Below, in pieces: positions 3,536 through 34,323 of a DNA stretch of 64,000 nucleotides. Both the position numbers and the translations under genes were made by a program. Source of the DNA: an uncultured Acidimicrobiales bacterium. GTDB lineage: Bacteria; Actinomycetota; Acidimicrobiia; Acidimicrobiales; SZUA-35. The stretch lies in NCBI GenBank assembly GCA_937922785.1, contig CALAJQ010000008.1, positions 62,001-126,000 on the forward strand, given 5' to 3'. The notes beneath the pieces were generated by a model. The model was not told the origin of the DNA. It did not search any database and saw only the letters and a program-made list of their open reading frames with translations. The first letter of the stretch is position 1. Each line of letters opens with the position of its first letter.

Positions 3536-4663
3536 TCACGTAGAAGTCACAGGAATGCGGGTCTTGGCCCGGAAACGCCCGTAGTTGAAATACGCAGCAC
3601 ACGCTCCCTCGGAAGAAACCATGCACGTTCCAATTGGCGTCTCGGGTGTGCAAGCACTGCCGAACACTTTGCATTCCCACGGCCGGATCGCGCCCTTCAG
3701 CACCTCGCCACATTGGCAAGCTTTCGGGTCGGCAACTCGAACGCCGGGAACTTCGAACTTCAACTCGGCATCGAACTCGGCAAAGTCTTCATTCAAAGCC
3801 AGCGCCGACTGGGCTATGAACCCAAGCCCACGCCACTCAAAATGGGGACGAATCGTGAACACCTGGCCAAGAATCTTCAGCGCGGCAGTGTTGCCACCGT
3901 CGCGCACAACTCGTTTGTACTGGTTCTCAACCTCGCACCGACCTTCGGCCAACTGGCGCAACAACATGGCCACACCCTGCAAAATGTCAACCGGTTCAAA
4001 CCCGGCTGCTACCAACGGCAGCCCGTACTCGCGGGGAACAAACTCATATGGTCCGGTGCCAATCACGGTGCTTACGTGGCCTGGGCCCAAGAAACCGTCC
4101 AGGCTCATACCGGGCGAATCCAAGATGGCCTTAACCGGTGGCACGATCGTCACGTGGTTGCAGAAGATGGAGAAGTTCGACACCTTGCGTTCTCGCGCCT
4201 GCATGGCAGTGACTGCGGTTGAAGGTGCGGTCGTCTCGAAACCGACCGCCAAGAAAACAACCTCTCGGTCAGGTTCACGTTCGGCAATTGCCAGCGCATC
4301 CAACGGCGAGTAGACAATCCGCACATCGGCTCCGTTGGCCTTGGCTTCAAGAAGTGTGCTCTTGCCGCCGGGCACCCGCATCATGTCGCCAAAACAACAC
4401 ATGGTTACGCCTTCGCGTGAGGCAACCGCAATTGCGTCGTCGATGCGCCCCATCGGGATCACACAAACTGGGCAACCCGGTCCGTGGACCATCTCTATTG
4501 ATTCGGGCAACAGCGTCTCGATGCCGTGGCGATAGATGGCGTGAGTATGGCCGCCACAAACCTCCATGAACTTGCGGGGCGGCTGATCCTTGGCAAGCGC
4601 AGTGATCTCTTTGATCAAGGCTCGGGCGGCTACGGGGTCTCGAAATTCGGTAACAAACTTCAT
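3536..4663 (-). CDS. hypD: Hydrogenase maturation protein HypD
   Basis: HypD is the Fe-S scaffold on which, together with HypC, the Fe(CN)2CO unit is assembled. In 375 residues the family motifs are complete: MEVCGGHTH (C36), GPGCPVC (C64, C67), the FFAVGFETTAPST-type segment (here FLAVGFETTAPST), and a cysteine-rich C-terminal region (CQCGEVLKG, PWECKVFG, CTPETPIGTC, EGACAAYF) that supplies the [4Fe-4S] ligands. Its start codon overlaps the stop of the SIS-domain gene by 4 bp, indicating translational coupling. Confidence 0.97.
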   Translation of the reverse strand: MKFVTEFRDPVAARALIKEITALAKDQPPRKFMEVCGGHTHAIYRHGIETLLPESIEMVHGPGCPVCVIPMGRIDDAIAVASREGVTMCCFGDMMRVPGGKSTLLEAKANGADVRIVYSPLDALAIAEREPDREVVFLAVGFETTAPSTAVTAMQARERKVSNFSIFCNHVTIVPPVKAILDSPGMSLDGFLGPGHVSTVIGTGPYEFVPREYGLPLVAAGFEPVDILQGVAMLLRQLAEGRCEVENQYKRVVRDGGNTAALKILGQVFTIRPHFEWRGLGFIAQSALALNEDFAEFDAELKFEVPGVRVADPKACQCGEVLKGAIRPWECKVFGSACTPETPIGTCMVSSEGACAAYFNYGRFRAKTRIPVTST

Positions 4664-5745
4664 CTACTCACCTCAAGTTCAACGCTCAGGCGGGCACACA
4701 ACTGGTCCATCAATACTCCTTGCGCTTCCTGAATCCGATGCACCGACGTCGAATCAACGGTGAGGCTGAGGTCGGTGGCCGGGTGCTGGGCTAGCGCCCC
4801 ACCGCCGTAACCAGCTGAGGCCACCACGGTTACGTCCGAAACTACGTCTATGTCTAACGCGGCCAGCAAGTTCGATGACGTTCCACTGGTGCTGAACACA
4901 AACAGCACGTCACCCGGCCTTACCGAAGCTTCGATCTGGCGGGCAAAGATTCTGTCAACACCAAGGTCGTTCGCCAGTGCGGTTAACACGGCGGGGTCGG
5001 CGGCGAGGCAGGTGGCCCGCACTTTGTGAGACCGCAGCTGACGGGCCAAACGAGCAGCATCACTAGAGCTGCCCCCGTTGCCGATGGTGTGAACGGTGTT
5101 GCCCCGGCGATGGCATGCATCGATGGCGGCCGCCACCGCGGTCAGTTCAGCGTCATTGTTGGCAACCGCCTGTGCGCTCACGTCGTTTGATTCAAGATCT
5201 TTGGCGTTGGCCGAGCTACGCATGGAATCTAGAAGTTCGGGTTCGCTGGTCTCGGCCGCATCGAGGAACGGGTAGAGGAAGTTGGTGCTGTCGCCGCCAG
5301 CAACCGCGGTGCCTCCGGTTAAACCCGGGTGTTTCAATCCCAACTGCACCAGCTCCCAAAGCACGTGGTAGTAACGCACGATTTCTGGTTCGGTCAACCC
5401 GGCGTCGGTTTGCAGAACCAGGGCTGCGGCTGGCAGCTCGCCATCGAAACGGGTAGGCGGGGTCAACACCAGCAAGGCGTCATTGGCTGACACGACGTGG
5501 GGCAGGTCATCGGCGTTCGCGGCAAACGCGGGAAGTGAGCGGGCGCCAACGATGGCCGGATGGATGAACTCAACGGCAACGTGTTGGGCATGGTCATGGC
5601 GGCCCGGAGCCACCACAACGAGGCGGCCACCGGCAGAAAACACTCGGGCCAAAGCCAGCGCCGAGTTAGCAAGATCCTTCTCCCCAAGATCCTGCCCCCC
5701 AAGAGCACCGGCAACTGGCCCGTCGAACGTTGAATCTCGGGTCAC
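4660..5745 (-). CDS. Double SIS-domain (GmhA-like) protein of the hyp operon
   Basis: A 361-residue protein built of two sugar-isomerase (SIS) type halves. The C-terminal half (about 190-361) has a recognisable GmhA-type phosphosugar-binding site (IGNGGSSSDAARLARQL, then VFSTSGTSSNLLAAL). The N-terminal half is a divergent copy (VVVAPGRHDHAQHVAVEFI, then HPAIVGARSLPAF). Phosphoheptose-isomerase-like genes are known companions of actinobacterial-type hydrogenase clusters, but I know of no demonstrated role. It overlaps hypC and hypD by 4 bp on each side, so it is firmly part of the maturation operon. Confidence 0.8.
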   Translation of the reverse strand: MTRDSTFDGPVAGALGGQDLGEKDLANSALALARVFSAGGRLVVVAPGRHDHAQHVAVEFIHPAIVGARSLPAFAANADDLPHVVSANDALLVLTPPTRFDGELPAAALVLQTDAGLTEPEIVRYYHVLWELVQLGLKHPGLTGGTAVAGGDSTNFLYPFLDAAETSEPELLDSMRSSANAKDLESNDVSAQAVANNDAELTAVAAAIDACHRRGNTVHTIGNGGSSSDAARLARQLRSHKVRATCLAADPAVLTALANDLGVDRIFARQIEASVRPGDVLFVFSTSGTSSNLLAALDIDVVSDVTVVASAGYGGGALAQHPATDLSLTVDSTSVHRIQEAQGVLMDQLCARLSVELEVSR

Positions 5746-31852: not shown

Positions 31853-32449
31853 CTAGCTAGCGATCAGCGCCTCAACGTCTGAGCGCAGCGAGCCGTAGCC
31901 TGTGGTTTGCCAGGTGCCGTCGTCGTTTAGGTACACATAGGTTCGCTGCTCGTCAACGCCGAAACGGTCCCAAAGTTCGGTGCCGTCAGCTACATGGGCA
32001 AAGGAATTTGCTCCGGTTTGATCTAGGAACTGAGCCTTCGAGCTGGCGTTGTCACTTAGTCCGGGTACGCCAATGAATAGAACTGCGTCACCGAATTCTT
32101 GCTGGACCTCCACGACCGTGGGGGCTTCCCGTCGTCAATGCGGTCACCACGGGGCCCAGAACCAAAACACCACGTCCTTGTTTTGGACAGTCTCCAAATC
32201 GAGAATCGGCCCGTCGATTGTTGCGAACTCGCCGGTGAGAATCTGGTCTATGGGCAGAGCAGCATTGTCAGATGAGCTTCCGGCTTCACCGCCTGCCGCA
32301 CACCCAGTGAGTAACAGGCCAATCCCAATTGCCAAAGCAAACAAGGCACGCAACCGAGACCGCGGCTGCTGGGTCAACGCAGTTGCTTTAGCGTCGGTTG
32401 CTGATCTTGTGCCCACTGCGAAGACTTTACATGCGGTGGCTGACTTCAA
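31853..32449 (-). CDS. Probable selenoprotein: thioredoxin-like lipoprotein with UxxU active site
   Basis: Read through two in-frame TGA codons (32144-32146 and 32135-32137), the frame encodes about 198 residues. It has a signal peptide with lipobox LLTGC (C50 from the TTG at 32449; GTG 32416 is an alternative start). A TlpA/ResA-like thioredoxin domain follows, with active site FWFWAPW-U-P-H-U-RREAPTV and C-terminal strands (DAVLFIGVPG, TYVYLNDDGTWQ). Both TGAs fall exactly on the two catalytic Cys positions of WCxxC. A hairpin with GGTC loop lies 10 nt beyond the second TGA (32107-32124). It directly follows the response regulator stop, so belongs to the DUF1772/kinase/regulator operon. Likely an extracytoplasmic thiol/selenol oxidoreductase. 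Confidence 0.8.
32107..32124 (-). promoter_or_regulatory. Candidate bacterial SECIS hairpin for the UxxU protein
   Basis: On the minus strand CCCCCAC-GGTC-GTGGAGG: 7-bp stem with one mismatch and a GGTC apical loop. The loop starts 17 nt after the second TGA and 26 nt after the first, inside the 16-37 nt window known for bacterial SECIS elements. GG/GU in the loop is the SelB-contacting feature of E. coli fdhF. Confidence 0.6.
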
Positions 32450-33100
32450 TCAGTCACCAAGACTGACGATGCCAGACTCATAGGCGGCGATAACCGCTTG
32501 GACGCGATCTCGGATGCCAAGTTTGGTTAGCACGCGGCTGATGTGGGTTTTTACAGTTGCCTGGCTTAAGAACAGACGCTCGGCGATTTCGGCGTTAGAG
32601 AGACCGCCGGCCAAGCTCTTGAGAACCTCAAGTTCGCGTTCTGTCAGCTGATCCATGCCGGCCACAACTCGTGGTTTCGCGGCACCTCGCGCCTGTTCGA
32701 AGACTGCCTGCACCAGCGAAGGGGCAAGCACCGCATCACCGTCGGCGACAGCTCGGATTGACGCTACAAGCTCATCCGCGGATGCGTCCTTAAGTAGAAA
32801 GCCAGACGCGCCTGCGGCAATTGCCGCCGACACGTATTCATCAAGGCCGAACGTGGTGAGGATTATGATCTTCGGCGCGTCGGGCTCGCCAAGGATGTGT
32901 TTGGCTGCCGCTAGCCCGTCGAGCTCTGGCATGCGGATGTCCATCAGCACGACGTCGACGCGTCTCGTCCGGCACGCTTCGATGATTTCTACACCGTTCG
33001 CCGCCGACGCCACGATGGACATGTCAGTTTCGTTGCCCACGATCAACTCGAAACCGGTGCGGATCATTTCGAGATCGTCAGCTACGGCTACACGAATCAT
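32450..33100 (-). CDS. NarL/LuxR-family response regulator
   Basis: 216 residues. Receiver domain with phospho-Asp in VVLMDIRMPELDG, and switch residues in IIILTTF. C-terminal LuxR HTH: LTERELEVLKSLAGGLSNAE, then RLFLSQATVKTHISRVLTKL. Overlaps the kinase gene by 4 bp. Its stop directly abuts the UxxU selenoprotein frame, so the selenoprotein is probably co-transcribed. Confidence 0.96.
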   Translation of the reverse strand: MIRVAVADDLEMIRTGFELIVGNETDMSIVASAANGVEIIEACRTRRVDVVLMDIRMPELDGLAAAKHILGEPDAPKIIILTTFGLDEYVSAAIAAGASGFLLKDASADELVASIRAVADGDAVLAPSLVQAVFEQARGAAKPRVVAGMDQLTERELEVLKSLAGGLSNAEIAERLFLSQATVKTHISRVLTKLGIRDRVQAVIAAYESGIVSLGD

Positions 33101-34323
33101 GGACGCACCTCAGTTGGGTTGGATTTGTGTCCGATGGGCAGCATTGCGTGAATGACGAACTGGCCCTCGTCGCGATGTTCCGAAGAGCGATGTTCCGAAG
33201 AAAAAGTGCCTCCAAGCACTGCGGCGCGTTCGGCCATTCCGGCAAGGCCGCTACCACCGACGGTAGGTTTTGATGGTCCGCCAGAAACCGTGTTAGTGAC
33301 AGTGATCCTAAGTTGCTCAGGACCGCTGGTGCGATGTGTTCCTGCGTCAACTTCAACCGTAACTTTCACATCAGGACCCCCATGCTTTATGGCGTTTGTG
33401 ACCGCCTCCTGGACGATGCGGTAGGCGCTGCCGGCAACAATGGGCGACGTGTCGACTTCGAGACAACTCTGATCGGTGAAGGTGATGTCTATTCCGTTGG
33501 CGCCGAGGTCGTTAACAAATCGGCGGATTTCGCCAAGGTCGGGCGGTGGCGCCAAATCGGCAGTAGAGGACTGTTGAAGCCCGGCCAAAACGCGTCGCGT
33601 GTCAGACAGCGCAGCGCGTGCCGACGTTGCAATGTCGGCCACTGCATCGCTGGCTGCCGTTGGGTGATTGTGACCCACACGGTTAGCAGCCTCGGCCCTG
33701 ACGGCGATAACAGACAGCGAGTGTCCGATGATGTCGTGAAGTTCTCGGCCAATATGAGCTCGCTCTTGTTCCACGGCTTGAGTCTGGTGATGCTGGGCAG
33801 TTAGTCGAGCATGGGCGGCGGCTGCGGCCAGTTGGCTAGCGTGAGCCTGTTGTTTGGCCGCATTGACACCGAGAGCCACAGCCGTGCCACACGTAAGCGC
33901 AACTAGCGGGAGTTGGTAGACCGAAACGTCGACTGCCAGCCGAACTCCAATTGCGGTGACGGCGGTCAACACGGCGCTGGAGGCAAGCGCAGCCCGGATT
34001 CCTCGGTTGTCAGGTTCTGAAGATGCGGTGTAGAGAATAACTATCATCGGAAGTAGCACTTCGGGAAGATCCGAAACCCAGACCGCAGTTTGGGCTGCGG
34101 TTGCTAGCGCAACGATCAACCGTGGGTTTGTTCGACGGAAGGCAACAAGAATTGGGGGAGCGACGATGAGCGCCCAGTGCCACCAAGTTGATGGTTCCAC
34201 AGTGTCCGGCCTCGCCGCATTCAGGTAAAGCCCCGAGAGGACGGCCACAACAGCCAGGCTTGCGGCGAGGGCGATGTCAGCCACGCCGGGTACCCAAGAA
34301 TTGGGTTCGTCAATGGCCACCAT
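33097..34323 (-). CDS. Sensor histidine kinase (HisKA_3 type)
   Basis: 408 residues. About five membrane helices in residues 15-165, then a dimerisation helix with the phospho-His in ERAHIGRELHDIIGHSL and an HATPase_c domain (YRIVQEAVTNAIKHG, GGSGLAGMAERAAVLGG). A 15-bp in-frame tandem duplication (33172-33201) yields SSEHRSSEHR near the C-terminus. Cognate of the regulator downstream. The membrane-embedded sensor suggests an envelope signal. Confidence 0.95.
   Translation of the reverse strand: MVAIDEPNSWVPGVADIALAASLAVVAVLSGLYLNAARPDTVEPSTWWHWALIVAPPILVAFRRTNPRLIVALATAAQTAVWVSDLPEVLLPMIVILYTASSEPDNRGIRAALASSAVLTAVTAIGVRLAVDVSVYQLPLVALTCGTAVALGVNAAKQQAHASQLAAAAAHARLTAQHHQTQAVEQERAHIGRELHDIIGHSLSVIAVRAEAANRVGHNHPTAASDAVADIATSARAALSDTRRVLAGLQQSSTADLAPPPDLGEIRRFVNDLGANGIDITFTDQSCLEVDTSPIVAGSAYRIVQEAVTNAIKHGGPDVKVTVEVDAGTHRTSGPEQLRITVTNTVSGGPSKPTVGGSGLAGMAERAAVLGGTFSSEHRSSEHRDEGQFVIHAMLPIGHKSNPTEVRP
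33172..33201. repeat. 15-bp exact tandem duplication in the kinase gene
   Basis: GCGATGTTCCGAAGA twice in tandem, duplicating five residues (SSEHR) between the last two strands of the ATPase domain. In frame, so probably tolerated. Confidence 0.85.

Follow-up and report, generated by a model that had tools for sequence, protein, structure and literature searches.

Locus and reading frame

The analyzed stretch (the window; 64,000 nt from an uncultured Acidimicrobiales bacterium) carries on its minus strand a frame with two in-frame TGA codons, hereafter the UxxU gene, which lies directly after a gene for a response regulator (Table 1). A histidine kinase and an anthrone-oxygenase-like protein are also encoded upstream, and a Rieske oxygenase and a short-chain dehydrogenase downstream. 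Read with both TGA codons as selenocysteine (Sec, U), the frame gives ...VVFWFWAPW-U-PH-U-RREAPTVVEV... and closes at a TAG stop (31855-31853). The initial annotation had described this leftward frame from 32449 with two TGA codons at the spacing of a CxxC motif, and its frame, coordinates, and motif proved correct. Initiation at TTG 32377 or GTG 32416 would provide a more usual signal peptide. The N-terminal signal is lipoprotein-like (..LLLTG-C..) and is followed by a thioredoxin-like domain with the motif FWAPW-U-PH-U. LTG-C, which we take to be a lipobox, has counterparts in 10 of 12 UxxU genes (L010 to L021; none in L015, and L021 is clipped by a contig edge), and the protein would thus be lipidated and anchored in the envelope.

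Table 1. Features of the UxxU locus, in window coordinates
Feature	Position	Strand	Basis or remark
UxxU lipoprotein coding frame	31853..32449	-	198 residues from TTG 32449; true start uncertain
LTG-C, lipobox-like; Cys50 would carry the lipid in the mature protein	32300..32311	-	Motif presumed to be a lipobox
First TGA (Sec102), N-terminal CxxC position	32144..32146	-	Frame reading and homologue alignment
Second TGA (Sec105), C-terminal CxxC position	32135..32137	-	Frame reading and homologue alignment
Bacterial SECIS-like hairpin, 8-pair stem, GGTC loop 32117-32114	32106..32125	-	Invariant loop, covarying stem
Arg169 codon, at the cis-proline place of the thioredoxin fold	31943..31945	-	Profile and homologue alignments
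LuxR/NarL-type response regulator, TGA as normal stop	32450..33100	-	Neighbor, outside any conserved unit
Histidine kinase (HisKA_3)	33097..34323	-	Neighbor, outside any conserved unit

The translation matched AhpC-TSA (PF00578) with 33.5 bits against a gathering score of 26, and Thioredoxin (PF00085; 33.3 against 23.5) and Redoxin (PF08534; 32.4 against 26.6) scored almost level with it. All three exceeded the Pfam cut-offs, in agreement with the annotated thioredoxin continuation past the TGA codons, and termination at the first TGA would break off the frame within the fold. Truncation of UxxU genes at that codon is to be expected from standard gene callers. The open stretch after the second TGA spans 93 codons, a length with a chance of ∼4% in random sequence of the same composition, and the 48 nt around the hairpin fold otherwise when taken alone (see below). 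For these two reasons, the window on its own would not prove a double Sec, and the case depends on homologues.

Homologues retain both TGA codons

Two-TGA matches were found in 12 genomes (15 rows) among the matches listed for 60 relatives plus the window's own genome, those from other genomes being 46 to 57% identical over the aligned part. A scan of a contig collection for the exact pattern [FY]WAPW-U-xx-U, which leaves room for UxxU relatives with other flanks, returned 45 stretches: 29 true relatives (30 genes), all titled Acidimicrobiales or Ilumatobacter and several identical to genes of the 60-relative set, and 16 out-of-frame chance matches. The genes common to both sets assign the window's genome, by kinship, to Acidimicrobiales. 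The same pattern had no match in a viral collection. One Acidimicrobiales genome (locus L088) holds a tandem UxxU pair on its minus strand (3931-3978 and 4718-4765), each member with two TGA codons and a hairpin. Searches of the order and phylum were capped at 11 scored candidates per genome. Across the order (397 genomes, matches to E 1e-22), 19 two-TGA matches from 17 genomes and three families scored 149.7 to 207.6 bits, and the matches listed from 143.5 bits down had at most one TGA each. Among the 37 matches listed for 396 genomes of the phylum, two TGA codons occurred only in the window's own gene, one in 23 (counted irrespective of its place), and none in 13.

Removal of duplicates by their first 90 bases reduced 61 genes to 50, of which 31 were UxxU genes, 29 of them full length. 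Alignment A5 contains no Cys rows and omits L021, L060, and L078, which are clipped by contig edges. Relatives with Cys at one or both Sec positions, as predicted in the initial annotation, were recovered with the motifs CTTC, CTVC, UPTC, and UTSC. Close homologues did not end at the same stop, the outcome that would have spoken against Sec; their frames continue beyond both codons, for 92 to 94 codons after the second TGA in 29/29 full-length UxxU genes. Among these genes (L060 and L078 left out), pN/pS had a median of 0.48 over 406 pairs and a highest value of 1.02, with pS near saturation.

These data bear on two alternatives to double Sec insertion. In one, only the first UGA would be read as Sec and the second would often serve as a stop, for regulated truncation; Sec insertion in bacteria is inefficient, so two successive UGA codons must cost product. 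However, both TGA codons are present in 31/31 kept genes, and a pure stop would not preserve the second half of the fold, which makes this reading improbable. The window's genome is a 4.9-Mb draft in 45 contigs, a circumstance in which a sequencing error or a pseudogene might be suspected, but the identical two codons recur in the 30 other kept genes with the frame conserved beyond them, leaving this explanation a negligible probability.

A single SECIS-like hairpin follows the two codons

The predicted hairpin with a GGTC loop lies downstream of the second TGA, as annotated, but begins 9 nt after that codon rather than 10. The first G of the loop is located at +17 nt from the second TGA and +26 nt from the first. 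Bacterial SECIS distances range from 16 to 37 nt, so the distance suits both codons, as had been claimed. GGTC is found exactly at +17 nt in 31/31 kept UxxU genes, of which 29 are full length and 30 differ from one another over the 48 nt, a fixed offset that lifts the case for a SECIS above chance, and at the equivalent place, 26 nt after the lone TGA, in 22/22 UxxC genes. Only one of four Cys rows has it: this Cys-only relative (L123; CTSC) carries GGTC at +17 with a less well paired stem, and its loop may be left over from a Sec site since lost.

Support for the stem comes from covariation. In the UxxU set, the covariation score was 0.263 versus 0.139 in shuffles (0/500 as high) and 0.050 to 0.160 in slid controls; with 16 UxxC genes added it reached 0.345 versus 0.174 (0/500), with slid controls at 0.068 to 0.123. 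Paired stem cells amounted to 87.9% in the UxxU set and 81.3% in its shuffles. Two of the five covariation measures did not beat the shuffles, either in the UxxU set or with UxxC genes added; double-change pairs numbered 4 versus 2.9 shuffled (100/500) in the former and 5 versus 3.5 (58/500) in the latter, and further pair types 6 versus 7.5 (497/500) and 10 versus 9.0 (153/500). Of the 30 distinct UxxU rows, 19 have a mismatch at the stem pair of columns 25/38. RNA folding of the window region, the check proposed in the initial annotation, did not give the SECIS hairpin, since the window's own 48 nt prefer another structure (z −0.62), and an Rfam search of the hairpin region returned no family match. 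A stem-loop 3′ of the UGA with a G in its apical loop is thus indicated by covariation instead. At the protein level, the stem couples two residues. The combination is Thr..Val in 28 of the 31 UxxU genes and Ala..Ala in the other 3. Of the 22 UxxC genes, 19 have Ala..Ala (the remainder S/V, S/A, and G/A), and the four Cys rows have D/V, D/V, E/A, and A/E, the last of which is an unrelated thioredoxin.

Very probably, one SECIS hairpin serves both UGA codons, as the UxxC relatives carry the loop in the same place. SelB with Sec-tRNA-Sec would bind this single hairpin 3′ of the active site, and the distances of its loop from the two codons would allow the same element to recode both. The clade offers naturally replicated material for testing whether a single bacterial SECIS supports Sec insertion at two positions nine nucleotides apart.

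The host genome encodes the Sec machinery

The check for selA, selB, selC, and selD suggested in the initial annotation turned up all four in the window's genome. The tRNA-Sec gene scored 66.7 bits (gathering score 47; ARAGORN anticodon tca), selA 384.6 against a cut-off of 267.9, selB 275.2 against 242.25, and selD, which itself has an in-frame TGA, 368.1 against 125. selA and selB form one operon, in the same direction and with a four-base overlap. Of 61 genomes (60 relatives and the own genome), 45 had SelB above the cut-off, including 12/12 that carry a two-TGA match (for G034, this required its neighbors in the frame), and tRNA-Sec was detected in 10 of these 12, the search finding none in G015 and G034. 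Sixteen genomes fell below the SelB cut-off, and none of the 15 homologues listed for them (9 genomes) had a TGA; four of the 16 (G021, G053, G054, and G056) gave a tRNA-Sec match despite their SelB score.

Nothing was found in favor of a changed genetic code in the lineage or of a UGA reading by another tRNA. Against this explanation, TGA terminates the neighboring response regulator gene and 10/29 full-length UxxU genes, the Sec machinery and the hairpin exist, and the Sec positions align with Cys. We regard it as very improbable, in keeping with the initial annotation. Homologues, stop usage, and Sec machinery together led us to reject pseudogene, sequencing error, and changed code.

At least 12 genes in the window's genome are candidates for selenoproteins, namely, nine PF00578 members, the UxxU gene, a UPTC relative on contig C5, and selD (loci L128 to L131, L134, L136 to L138, L141, L050, and L154). 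Nine of its 16 PF00578 matches have one in-frame TGA, in every case in a redox-like motif. This selenoproteome is rich for an actinobacterium and suggests the same for Acidimicrobiales; neither this order nor Actinobacteria as a whole is named in the main text of two reviews on prokaryotes that we searched for them. A second selenoprotein gene lies in the window itself (36733 to about 37854, minus strand, start uncertain; TGA 37527-37525). Its product is a ResA-like WAPY-U-GC protein (NF041054, 439.8 bits against a cut-off of 300), and a hairpin, CCTGCCA-GGT-TGGCAGG, is predicted after the TGA.

Predicted fold

The AlphaFold model of the mature UxxU protein had a pLDDT of 86.2 and a pTM of 0.80. 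Its best structural match was mycobacterial DsbF (Mt-DsbF, 3ios; Z 20.5, 129 residues, rmsd 1.6), followed by Mt-DsbE (1lu4; Z 19.3), thiol-disulfide oxidoreductases of the ResA kind (Z 17.3 to 18.0), and, more distantly, GPx and PrxQ structures (Z 14.6 to 15.1). A profile search agreed, with Mt-DsbF (132 bits) and Mt-DsbE (112 bits) as the best solved relatives. The modeled fold is DsbF-like, of the actinobacterial DsbE/DsbF-ResA-TlpA type. On the sequence and model evidence, the UxxU gene most probably encodes a genuine double-Sec thioredoxin-fold protein; for the joint claim of a double-Sec protein with this decoding and this fold, we estimate a probability of roughly 0.88.

Origin of the second Sec and loss of the cis-proline

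A tree of 54 proteins was computed with both site residues masked and rooted at the midpoint; it excludes the unrelated Cys thioredoxin of L023 as well as L060 and L078. The 29 UxxU proteins fell on one side of a branch (support 96/83), which adjoins four UTSC/UGAC proteins (joint branch 99/92), with the remaining UxxC rows around them. In the simplest reading, the second Sec seems to have been gained once, atop an older Sec and an older hairpin. No loss of the second Sec was seen among the listed matches of the 61-genome and 397-genome surveys. Since the root is a midpoint, the direction UxxC to UxxU is one that we infer.

The cis-proline of the thioredoxin fold takes part in substrate binding. 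It is absent from 28/28 aligned UxxU rows, which have Arg in 25 cases and Gln, Ser, and Gly in one each, but is kept in 18/22 UxxC rows. The four sister rows have Ser, with an Arg one residue earlier, and the more distant one-Sec paralogue in the window's genome (L138; UPTC) also lacks the proline, so its loss is not confined to UxxU proteins. The order of change is likely legible in living forms: UxxC with the cis-proline, UxxC without it, and then UxxU. Each of these steps would be open to mutation, and the clade likewise offers test material for what a diselenide gives an envelope redox enzyme. A more speculative and, in its entirety, rather unlikely scenario is that a DsbF-like exchanger became a diselenide enzyme for small oxidants, losing the cis-proline and then acquiring the second Sec and the Arg, which would converge on the peroxiredoxin layout, while one SECIS came to be used twice three codons apart with SelB reloaded.

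Possible roles of the Sec pair

Judging from the fold, Sec102 would attack and Sec105 would resolve, and the pair would cycle via a diselenide. We tentatively put first a DsbF/ResA-like role in selenol/thiol-disulfide exchange at the cell surface, mainly reducing and resistant to overoxidation, a reading that takes in the subcase of thiol oxidation as by Mt-DsbE and Mt-DsbF. These two proteins are the closest solved relatives and, as reported in PMC3853704, fold hirudin oxidatively and show no isomerase activity on the substrate tested. In a Grx octapeptide, the diselenide has a potential of −381 mV versus −180 mV for the disulfide (PMC10096412). A diselenide is thus hard to reduce and ill suited to an oxidase, which counts against the plain oxidase subcase and for exchange in the reducing direction. 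The missing cis-proline weighs against the DsbF/ResA-like role in general, as does the outcome of the partner search: DsbD/CcdA models (PF02683 and PF13386) had no match, and VKOR (PF07884) had a single one of 21.7 bits, below the cut-off. This last hit, a Sec-containing VKOR considered as a partner, was discarded as a chance match.

The runner-up, possible though on balance unlikely, is that the same double-Sec protein is a peroxidase-like enzyme, in which Arg169 would act as the peroxiredoxin Arg, the Sec pair would reduce peroxides, and diselenide formation would be the resolving step. The active-site Arg of peroxiredoxins occupies the cis-proline place (our literature search for this correspondence found no paper), and the prevalence of Arg and complete lack of Pro there in UxxU rows, versus Pro in most UxxC rows, fits such a function. 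An Arg at the Arg169 offset, nine residues before the last residue of the turn, also occurs in four proteins of the window's genome (L127, L128, L129, and L133) whose motifs look peroxiredoxin-like by eye; this is suggestive of a peroxidase-like role but no proof. GPx and PrxQ structures do align with the model, but the nearest folds are those of DsbF and DsbE. The peroxiredoxin motif PxxxTxxC is absent, with Trp98 and Sec102 at its Pro and Thr places. Moreover, Arg is replaced by Q, S, or G in three UxxU rows, the sister UxxC rows have S with the Arg one residue earlier, and L138 shows that proline loss is not tied to UxxU alone. Exchange of the DsbF/ResA type hence stays our first reading.

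Relation to known selenoproteins

UxxU as such is already known. Reviews list Prx-like thiol:disulfide oxidoreductases of PF00578 as UxxC/UxxU selenoproteins, along with further UxxU families (PMC9312934 and PMC13188914). The initial annotation had called two Sec in one redox motif rare; the arrangement is uncommon among proteins, but it already figures in these PF00578 tables, and what stands out here is its fixation across a whole gene clade. The PF00578 entries share with the UxxU protein the Pfam family, the UxxU spacing, one or two Sec residues, and a predicted redox role. As tabulated, they give neither a lineage nor further detail for UxxU, whereas the clade described here is actinobacterial and DsbF-like, with lipobox-like signals and without the cis-proline.

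SelL and Prx-like 2, compared here by description only, likewise have two Sec in one CxxC-type motif (UxxU, diselenide). A diselenide in a redox motif is reported in a 2007 study by Shchedrina on SelL. PF04592 did not match the UxxU protein at E 0.001. The GOS study lists UxxU in Prx-like 2, which it gives as of low similarity to pfam04592 (PMC2398784).

Mycobacterial DsbF and DsbE, also extracytoplasmic and actinobacterial and the nearest PDB entries by both fold and profile, have Cys at both sites and Pro at the cis-proline place, where the UxxU protein has Sec102, Sec105, and Arg169. ResA, TlpA, and CcmG resemble it in fold (ResA Z ∼17.3 to 17.8) and in the WxxxCxxC-type context, but differ by their Cys active site and Pro; the NCBIfam ResA and TlpA models scored far below their cut-offs on it. 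The ResA-like WAxxUGC_long family (NF041054), to which the other selenoprotein of the window belongs, is also TlpA-like but has one Sec in a UGC motif, and the UxxU protein scored 20.9 against its cut-off of 300. Our literature search, largely confined to papers outside subscription journals, recognized no treatment of Acidimicrobiales or Ilumatobacter UxxU selenoproteins. Relative to the literature searched, the new elements are the actinobacterial DsbF-like UxxU clade, its cis-proline loss, and the comparative evidence for one hairpin with two UGA codons.

Gene neighborhood

The initial annotation placed the UxxU gene at the end of a two-component operon. It does directly follow the response regulator gene, but the other UxxU genes do not share the two-component neighbors: clustering of the proteins encoded around 31 UxxU sites, out to 5 kb where the loci extend that far, revealed no two-component genes among the shared clusters, and a two-component regulatory link was rejected. 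The association is local only and implies no such link. Large clusters arose only from frames overlapping the UxxU gene itself, several of them antisense; the others were a block in four loci, sets of three or four, and generic short-chain dehydrogenases, including that of the window.

In the four loci with the common block (L074, L081, L083, and L092), the UxxU gene adjoins genes for what are presumably, from reading their sequences, CDP-alcohol phosphatidyltransferase-like and acyltransferase-like proteins, joined in three of them by a glycosyltransferase-like protein. Finally, in L088 and L089 the UxxU gene is preceded by a further lipoprotein-like frame, which perhaps belongs to another selenoprotein. 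This frame stops at ...LLWFWSPH, just where the active site of a thioredoxin would come next.
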